From an uncultured Candidatus Saccharibacteria bacterium (GTDB lineage: Bacteria > Patescibacteriota > Saccharimonadia > Saccharimonadales > Saccharimonadaceae), in contig CANBEI010000008.1 of the NCBI GenBank assembly GCA_947367565.1, positions 1 through 33,286 on the forward strand: DNA of 33,286 nucleotides. Reading direction: 5' to 3'. Below are positions 16,941 to 28,627 of this stretch, piece after piece. Position 1 is the first letter of the stretch. Every line of letters begins with the position of its first letter. The position numbers were made by a program, and so were the translations under genes. The notes below the pieces were generated by a model that was not told the DNA's origin, made no database searches, and saw only the letters and a program-made list of their open reading frames with translations.

Positions 16941-18818
16941 ATGAAATACCTCAAGCGTTTTCTCATCGTCCTCGTCTACCTCTTGCCGGCCGCCCTCTAT
17001 TGTAGCTACTATCCTATTATCAAGCTCGGCGAAACCAACTCCATGAACTTCGAACTCTCCCTCCCCCTGATTTGGCTTGTATTGTTTGACATCGTCTCCT
17101 TCATTAGCCTGATAGGGATAGGGAAGAAACGTCGGTCGCATACGTCTTCTAAGAAACTCTCCGCGACCAACGGGGAGCGGGCGAAGCAAGGAGTCCCCGT
17201 AACGACGGGCGACGACGAAGCGGGTTTCGTAAAGACGCATGCGACCGACGTTTCTTTAGCTATTTCCGATCGGCGTTTTTTCCTCTTCTCCCTTTTCCCA
17301 TTTTTCGCCACCCTTTCCATCTTCTGGTCCGCAAACCCTACTCGTGCCATCCTTACCGCCGGCATTATTTGGCTAGTTTTCTTTGCCGTATTCTCTTTAA
17401 TCTACGTTTTGCCCCTCCTAGAATTACCGGGGAATTTTAAACGCAATTGCCTCCGCAGTTTTTTCATCGCCTCGGTCATTGCCTGTTTGATTTGCTGGAT
17501 TCAATGCCTCCTCGACATCGCCGGCCTCGCTCGCGAGACCACCCTCATGTGCCGCGGCTGTACCTATCTCTCTTTTGGCTTTCCGCACCCTTCCGGCCTC
17601 GCCATCGAACCTCAATTCATGGGCAACCTCCTCCTCGCCCCTACTCTAACCTCCCTCTATCTCCTGATTTTTAATGTGCAAAGTGGAGGAGAAAAGAAGA
17701 GTCTTGTCATGTTGTGTATTCTTTTCTCCTCCACCCTCTTCCTTACCTTCTCCCGCGGCGCCATTTACGCTTACGCTGTCGCGCTTGTAATCATGCTTAT
17801 TTTTGCCATTCGCCGCCATGTTTTCCGCGCCAGCCTAGTTGCTATCCCGATTGCGACCTTCCTCGCGATTACCGGCATCCAAGGTATTTTTACTGTCATT
17901 GGCCCCACTCACGGCAGCTTCATCGATGGCGTTTCTAAATCAATCCACCAGCTCTCTCTTGGCATTATCGACATTCGCCCCAAATCTCCGTCAGTAAGCG
18001 TTGAAGACTCCTCAGAATCCACCCCTGTTAGCTCCCCAGAAGCCCCAGAGTCGCCCTCTGATTCCGGACCTTCCACGGATCAAGCCTCAACGGAAGCTAC
18101 CCCAGAAGAGCCCGAAAATGCCGAAAATCAGCCCTATTTCGAGGGTTATGTCGCCGAATCCACCACCGCTCGCCTTAATCTTAATAGAGCGGCCCTCGAC
18201 ACCTGGCTTTCCGCCCCCGGACACGCCGAATCTAGCCTGAGTATTGGCCTCCATTGTCATTTCTTCTTGCCTGGAACGGGGCCCGCCTGCACCGCTTCCG
18301 TTCCGCTTACTCCGACTAGCGTTCTCTTTGGCGTCGGTCTCGGAGGCGCTGGTACCGCTATGTATCTTAATTCTTTCATCACAGATATCAACAGTCCGAA
18401 AGAAATTGTCCAACATCAAGGCTTCTCCCTACTCCTTGAGCTCGGTCTCGTTGGCATCGCTCTGGCCATTTTCTCTCTGTTAATTGCCTTCTTCCCGCAG
18501 TTTTTCTCTCGTCGCTTCCTCGACGGCAAAGCTGCCAAAGTTCCTGAAAGTACCCAGAAGTCTGAAAAAATCTCCGAAACCGCCAAAAATCCTGCCCAAA
18601 AAGCTCCACCCAGCCCTTTTTGGCGACACCCCGCCCTGCCTCTGCTCGCTGCCCTGATTATTGCCTATCTCGTCACGCTCAATTTCTTCTCCGGTCTCCC
18701 CAATGCTCTCCAAATATACCTCATGCCACCTCTGTTGTACTATATATTCGTCGACGACTCTGCTTCACGAGATGTCAAAAAGCCCAAAAAAGCCCTTGCG
18801 CGAAGCTCCAATGCGTGA
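16941..18818 (+). CDS. O-antigen ligase/polymerase-like (Wzy/WaaL) membrane protein, with a repeat-element insertion
   Basis: The 625-residue protein has many hydrophobic helices and a large extracytoplasmic loop, the layout of Wzy polymerases and O-antigen ligases. FLTFSRGAIYAYAVALVIML matches the Wzy_C-like signature (S-R-G/S). The extended loop (about 350-490) contains a Ser/Pro/Glu-rich low-complexity stretch and several cysteines (LHCHFFLPGTGPACTAS), then GVGLGGAGTAMYL and HQGFSLLLELGLVGIAL, as expected for the family. Two hydrophilic insertions stand out: residues about 62-105, encoded by a 129-base hairpin element, and a Lys/Pro-rich loop at about 534-560. Function is likely polymerisation or transfer of the lipid-linked glycan; the two cannot be separated by sequence. 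Its last codons overlap the tRNA promoter. Confidence 0.85.
   Translation: MKYLKRFLIVLVYLLPAALYCSYYPIIKLGETNSMNFELSLPLIWLVLFDIVSFISLIGIGKKRRSHTSSKKLSATNGERAKQGVPVTTGDDEAGFVKTHATDVSLAISDRRFFLFSLFPFFATLSIFWSANPTRAILTAGIIWLVFFAVFSLIYVLPLLELPGNFKRNCLRSFFIASVIACLICWIQCLLDIAGLARETTLMCRGCTYLSFGFPHPSGLAIEPQFMGNLLLAPTLTSLYLLIFNVQSGGEKKSLVMLCILFSSTLFLTFSRGAIYAYAVALVIMLIFAIRRHVFRASLVAIPIATFLAITGIQGIFTVIGPTHGSFIDGVSKSIHQLSLGIIDIRPKSPSVSVEDSSESTPVSSPEAPESPSDSGPSTDQASTEATPEEPENAENQPYFEGYVAESTTARLNLNRAALDTWLSAPGHAESSLSIGLHCHFFLPGTGPACTASVPLTPTSVLFGVGLGGAGTAMYLNSFITDINSPKEIVQHQGFSLLLELGLVGIALAIFSLLIAFFPQFFSRRFLDGKAAKVPESTQKSEKISETAKNPAQKAPPSPFWRHPALPLLAALIIAYLVTLNFFSGLPNALQIYLMPPLLYYIFVDDSASRDVKKPKKALARSSNA
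17124..17256. repeat. Hairpin repeat element, copy 1 (inside coding sequence)
   Basis: The arms at 17126-17148 and 17232-17254 are complementary over 23 bases with one mismatch, and pairing continues two bases outward. Inside, GAAACTC pairs with GGGTTTC. The apex carries GCGACCAACGGGGAGCG, the mini-hairpin GCGAAGC and the hairpin CCCGT-AACG-ACGGG, all of which recur in copy 2 (26557-26706). The 129-base core is exactly 43 codons and keeps the host frame open. Confidence 0.8.
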
Positions 18819-22785: not shown

Positions 22786-22809
22786 TTTACTCCTTTGTCT
22801 TACATTTGC

Positions 22810-22827
22810 TGTACATTGTACATACAA
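22810..22827. repeat. Palindrome in the nusA leader, matching the one at 1448-1472
   Basis: TGTACA-T-TGTACA (22810-22822) is a perfect palindrome, and the 17 bases 22811-22827 are the exact reverse complement of 1460-1476. It sits 25-40 bases upstream of the nusA start codon, within the transcribed leader. Confidence 0.65.
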
Positions 22828-22877
22828 CTGATATACATCTGCAATACATCTCCGCAGCCCCCGCGCAAGCTCCACGC

Positions 22878-26495: not shown

Positions 26496-26522
26496 TTAGC
26501 ACTGTTGACACATGAGTGCTAA
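26496..26522. promoter_or_regulatory. CIRCE operator 2 upstream of dnaK
   Basis: TTAGCACTG, nine bases, GAGTGCTAA: one mismatch from consensus. It lies at the predicted transcription start and would also be at the 5' end of the mRNA. Confidence 0.93.
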
Positions 26523-26556
26523 TGATATATTATTGTGAATAGAATCTGTTATTTAA

Positions 26557-26706
26557 AAATACAGTCGTCGGTGACTGGACTACGGTTCTTTTCAGGACTC
26601 TTCGCGACCAACGGGGAGCGAGCGAAGCGCAGGCCCGCCCGTAACGACGGGACGGGTCAAGCGGGTCCTGAAAAGGATGGTAGTCCAGCTACCTCCGTCT
26701 GTATTT
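26557..26706. repeat. Hairpin repeat element, copy 2 (dnaK 5' UTR)
   Basis: Arms 26557-26600 and 26663-26706 are 44 bases each and complementary apart from about nine positions, including the unbroken blocks CTGGACTAC and CTTTTCAGGAC. The apex shares GCGACCAACGGGGAGCG, GCGAAGC, CCCGTAACGACGGG and AAGCGGGT with copy 1 at 17124-17256, while the arms differ. It fills most of the dnaK leader and ends 8 bases before the ribosome binding site. Confidence 0.82.
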
Positions 26707-26725
26707 ATTAAAGAAAGGAAATCAT

Positions 26726-28627
<1,902 letters not shown>

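Follow-up and report, generated by a model that had tools for sequence, protein, structure and literature searches.

Does a long palindrome lying inside the reading frame of a membrane-protein gene belong to that protein, or is it a copy of an element that moves? Descriptions of protein-coding palindromes come mostly from Rickettsia and Wolbachia, and the 33,286-nt stretch of Saccharibacteria DNA analysed here (the window) carries one at 17124..17256, on the forward strand, as are its host gene, dnaK and the second copy described below. The host gene (16941..18818 in the ORF list) encodes a multi-spanning membrane protein of 625 residues in a polysaccharide locus; it matched no Pfam or NCBIfam family, and the label 'Wzy/WaaL-like' is a putative one, based on membrane character and on its place in the polysaccharide gene cluster. 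An inverted-repeat search of the window returned a 5′ arm (17124..17148) and a 3′ arm (17232..17256) of 25 nt, complementary at 24 of 25 positions (96%) and spaced by 83 nt. Folded as RNA, the element had an energy of −80.6 kcal/mol, where shuffled sequences averaged −49.3 kcal/mol (z = −8.1), and 0 of 200 shuffles were as stable. The ORF stays in frame throughout, and the element falls in a loop between hydrophobic segments. An earlier note, made from the sequence alone, had described a hairpin inserted in frame at these positions, and arms, fold and uninterrupted ORF bear this out. Its size needs amending: the insert measures about 133 nt with the arms included, rather than a 129-base core.

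A second copy (26552..26711, arms 26552-26598 and 26665-26711) occupies the 5′ leader of dnaK (26726..28627 in the ORF list, the start read from the sequence). It was recognised by its inverted repeat, its apex and its fold, and is likewise a long hairpin (z = −9.6). The earlier note had also claimed that the two copies share an apex, and they do, at 94% over 32 nt in one comparison and 85% over 55 nt in another. The leader copy is placed between the ribosome-binding site of dnaK and a CIRCE-like operator, read from the sequence as TTAGCACT-N10-GAGTGCTAA at 26496-26522. Elsewhere in the window, near-identical TTGACNTTTTC..GTGCTACAAT sequences occur three times (20612, 24430 and 32708), apparently a common strong promoter sequence, and two similar palindromes of the TTGTACATACATTGTATGTACAA type (1442-1478 and 22795-22837) form a candidate regulator site, one of them adjoining a lexA-like gene at 1487-1810.

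Some ten further places came to light in a DNA search of this 914-kb genome. All intact copies have a conserved core set between long complementary arms whose sequence varies from copy to copy; the element is a hairpin of about 115-135 nt, with arms of ~22-30 bp and a conserved core of ~60-65 nt. An alignment of 19 sequences contained an invariant block, CCGTAACGACGGG, and supported three short core helices and a basal stem, with covariation over the whole structure higher than in each of 500 shuffles and in every slid version; for the core, the covariation score likewise surpassed every shuffle. In copy 1, invariant columns, consensus fold and covariation define the conserved core, or apex, at 17149..17231, and within it a UCCGC/GCGGG helix (about 17160-17164 with 17177-17181) and a hairpin, GUCCCCGU-AACG-ACGGGCGAC (about 17193-17213). 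The covariance model that the earlier note had proposed was built from the copies; it matched copy 1 at 17149-17233 (85.7 bits) and copy 2 at 26590-26674 (93.1 bits), and counted 17 copies in this genome; of 147 congeners, 135 also carried the element. Across 286 genomes of the phylum, with E-values that are rough, it matched in 3 members of the same genus and gave 1 weak match among the other 283. An exact scan of genome contigs with a 23-mer from the core gave, among the matches listed, Candidatus Saccharibacteria only, mainly from ruminant gut and in some cases from termite gut. The family is limited to one genus of Saccharibacteria from the ruminant and termite gut. The element matched none of the covariance models of Rfam 15. 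Viral carriers were considered and set aside, as all 14 matches to a 16-mer in viral contigs had weak model scores. One copy, in the linker of der (L017, in G000 C11, 1047-1079), has a partial core next to a CCCTGCGACGGCAGG hairpin and is perhaps a chimera of two families.

If the palindrome were a native part of the membrane protein, its orthologs should all carry a conserved loop at this point. They do not: orthologs are present in 135 of 147 congeners, and the insert is missing in 24 of the 28 that could be read at the site, while three others (L377-L379) have a different hydrophilic stretch there. The second observation that the earlier note said would count against its reading, a genome with no further copies, was likewise not made. 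Copy 1 would be a single recent, lineage-specific insertion into a loop of the polysaccharide-locus protein. We compared filled and empty sites between a near-complete relative (793 kb) and parts of three others, and then between 247 copies and all fetched loci; the genomes are mostly metagenome-assembled, and the copy sets of different species overlap. For 105 copies an empty ortholog was found. Close pairs were inspected by eye, and in them the empty allele lacked the core and both arms; as judged from these alleles, the element is therefore gained and lost as one complete hairpin. Since neither arm is present in the empty alleles, an origin of the arms by inverted duplication of target sequence is rejected. 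Junctions looked blunt in the clearest pairs, with a possible target-site duplication upstream of glmM. Copies lie in either orientation, in genes and between them; their positions differ across the genus, and their presence is polymorphic. A single site in tsaD is empty in some species, carries the family in sense in one and in antisense in others, and elsewhere holds other hairpin families, always in frame. Core deletion that leaves a scar is not the usual fate of a copy, since stems are rare in empty alleles and only one clear case was seen: the tsaD allele of L058 has a palindrome that matches the arms of L045 and L050 with no core between them, and resembles such a scar.

Long ORFs spanned the entire element in 208 of 250 copies (144 sense, 64 antisense), and of the 144, 1 used the sense frame in which the core has a stop codon. 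Relative to the empty ortholog, the net length was divisible by three in 92 of 93 genic pairs and in 6 of 12 intergenic ones. To the extent that sequence comparison can tell, genic copies are present only where the frame is kept and is free of stops. The commonest hosts were valS (35), mnmA (16), obgE (16), tsaD (12) and argS (10); others were a methyltransferase, lepA, miaA, queA, gyrA, uvrB, a FemAB protein, der, alaS and an amidase (gatA by context). From the reading frames, translation by the host is predicted to turn the element into a hydrophilic loop some 40 residues long, and because the hosts are mostly universal genes, the altered proteins are presumably functional. A hairpin this long and stable, with its conserved core, might also be an intron-like sequence, or one bypassed by the ribosome, and so remain untranslated. 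Lengths in multiples of three and stop-free frames argue against this, and the antisense copies would offer such a mechanism the complementary RNA, their orientation to the mRNA not being fixed; we regard it as extremely improbable.

We conclude, with a probability of roughly 0.78, that the element is a non-autonomous mobile palindrome, similar in its working to the Rickettsia palindromic elements (RPEs), which is gained as a whole hairpin and filtered by reading frame within genes. A recombinase acting in trans would recognise the folded single strand, that is, the conserved apex together with a paired stem whose sequence is free, and would then insert the hairpin whole. Selection would purge the insertions that break genes; those in frame and without stops, in permissive surface loops, would stay, and such loops would be hit repeatedly by several hairpin families. 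Searches for genes of two kinds, Y1 transposases and reverse transcriptases, did not identify a mobilising gene. The palindromic form and the likely recognition of a folded strand would also suit a REP-like element mobilised by a Y1 transposase of the RAYT type. In a sample of 151 genomes of the family, however, the domain of that transposase (PF01797) occurred in 0 genomes of the same genus and in 26 others, which makes this origin very improbable. REPs are extragenic, short and tied to that transposase.

We next consider which strand folds and how the arms change. Pairing between the arms was 0.62-0.86 per position, compared with 0.25-0.36 when partners were shuffled among copies, and the arm termini had a weak consensus across copies. 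Departures from Watson-Crick pairing on the element's own strand were more often G.U than A.C (131 vs. 74; the copies are related, and a p-value is a guide only). In antisense copies the same strand was again biased (22 vs. 7), which disfavours folding of the host mRNA as the source of the excess. Because the G.U bias persists when the gene runs the opposite way, what matters appears to be the folding of the element's own strand, either as RNA or as single-stranded DNA, and not of the host mRNA. At unrelated sites, arms were only ~58% identical (median) even between copies whose cores matched at 98% or more. Where the cores at unrelated sites differed at 0-1 of about 70 nt (51 pairs), arm changes were compensated in 391 cases and single in 116, whereas same-site pairs at equal core distance (9 pairs) had 0 compensated and 8 single changes. 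Capture of the arms from other parts of the genome is rejected for 12 copies of one near-complete genome, in which the longest matches of the arms (11-14 nt) were like those of flank and shuffled controls. Either each jump brings a fresh pair of mutually complementary arms, or the copies are old, with strongly constrained cores and slow compensation.

Renewal at the jump would be expected of a retro-element, in which a reverse transcriptase copies the RNA and fold-back priming makes complementary arms anew each time. The excess of G.U on the element's own strand and the compensated arms beside near-identical cores are both in its favour, but older same-site pairs also have some compensated changes, and compensation in place could give the same pattern if the jump pairs are old. 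Reverse transcriptase is, moreover, patchy in the genus and was undetected in two near-complete genomes that bear the element (G062 and G042). A retro-element is, in our judgement, distinctly unlikely. A broader proposal, that of a new class of hairpin in which the apex is the mobile identity and the arms are remade by fold-back copying at each jump, after which a copy inside a translated essential gene is near-immutable or is swapped for another hairpin at its site, is rather unlikely, and we put it forward only tentatively.

The second part of that proposal arises from the copies at shared sites, which are nearly frozen. In most close pairs, same-site copies differed by 0.008-0.03 per site, compared with 0.08-0.36 at third codon positions of the host; in gyrA, the two copies differed at 2 of 119 positions, the two changes being themselves a compensated pair, while third positions differed by 0.47. 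At 85-93% flank identity, in a tally that left the second allele unconditioned, the ortholog carried the same element (at least 0.95 identical) in 19 cases, a sequence below 0.85 in 22, an intermediate in 1 and an empty site in 0. Those of the divergent alleles that were read by eye were other hairpins, and one was the element inverted in place. Ascertainment bias does not account for the low divergence, as the pattern stays when the second allele is unconditioned, and neither does local horizontal transfer, as flank identity was no higher near the element and there was no gradient of co-conversion. The constancy may come from selection acting on every copy or from replacement that happens often. 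Conservation far beyond that expected of dead selfish DNA hints at continuing selection, which lies outside an account in terms of a mobile element. One could then suppose a structured site, in RNA or DNA, that serves the host (as a regulatory hairpin or in chromosome organisation or processing), happens to spread and has its copies kept by purifying selection. The low same-site divergence, the flanks without co-conversion and the alleles that are either the same or quite different, never empty, speak for such a site. On the other hand, copies do not occupy the same positions throughout the genus; they are polymorphic, occur in either orientation and lie mostly within unrelated genes, and a function at the DNA level would need to be indifferent to orientation and place. 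We therefore think a host-function site unlikely.

Several sites document other hairpins and rearrangements. At one intergenic site (L112, L121 and L126, in G072, G080 and G120), G120 carries this family, G080 another hairpin of 161-166 nt with ATAATTCATTA-like arms, and G072 is empty. Another family, with GGGTGACGGC..GCCGGCAGGACCCG, was found in G117_C19 (L115), G072_C4 (L113) and L128/L129; its loop contains a mini-hairpin of 37 nt that is present or absent between close species. In G120_C3 (L184) and G072_C4 (L113), a hairpin was inserted exactly within the loop of a pre-existing hairpin, between CCTTCTTC and GGAAGG. Insertions within hairpin loops suggest a preference for single-stranded loops. 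Finally, L317 and L358 share a site with flanks ~91% identical and homologous arms, and the core is inverted between them: by recombination between its arms, an element can be turned round where it lies.

Among known systems, the mobile palindrome proposed here most calls for comparison with RPEs and their Wolbachia analogue, which are dispersed hairpins of 100-150 nt, intergenic and in frame in conserved genes (PMC10969869; PMC2229807). Our element is also a dispersed palindrome of 100-150 nt, found in frame in conserved genes and between genes. The earlier note's reading of an RPE-like insertion is upheld by the dispersed copies, the empty orthologous sites, the kept frame and the stem covariation, and its suggestion of novelty is consistent with the literature searched, which lay outside most subscription papers and gave no account of such an element in Saccharibacteria. 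The host phylum is different, and the likeness is drawn by analogy. The arrangement here also differs, with a conserved apex and arms kept by base pairing while their sequence is free, and many copies here are antisense to the gene. The repeats of RPEs are reported to become less alike as time passes (PMC6649704, citing Claverie and Ogata 2003), unlike the same-site copies here, which are nearly unchanged or replaced. By this analogy we call the element RPE-like, not an RPE, as its evolutionary behaviour differs.

Bacterial MITEs (ERIC, YPAL, Correia/NEMIS, RUP) are likewise short and non-autonomous, with hairpin transcripts and some ORFs fused in frame, and YPAL has empty and filled sites, with targets near dyad symmetry (PMC2229807). 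Our element resembles them in its size, its lack of autonomy, its hairpin and its YPAL-like empty and filled sites. In MITEs, however, the terminal repeats are conserved and the target is often duplicated at TA, whereas in the present element it is the ends that vary, with a weak consensus. The long inverted repeats of nematomorph mitochondria also lie within translated genes and are apparently actively maintained (PMC6649704), but they are native coding sequence, with no common core and no inserted family. The likeness to REPs is that of palindromes probably recognised as folded DNA.

Coding palindromes are now found in a distant lineage with reduced genomes, with copies in more than 130 species. 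The hundreds of natural filled and empty alleles open to study how a selfish hairpin rewrites essential proteins, and loops of ~40 residues in tRNA synthetases and tRNA-modifying enzymes matter for annotation and structure prediction. The compensated changes in the arms, set against near-frozen copies at the same site, amount to a testable statement on how such hairpins jump and persist.
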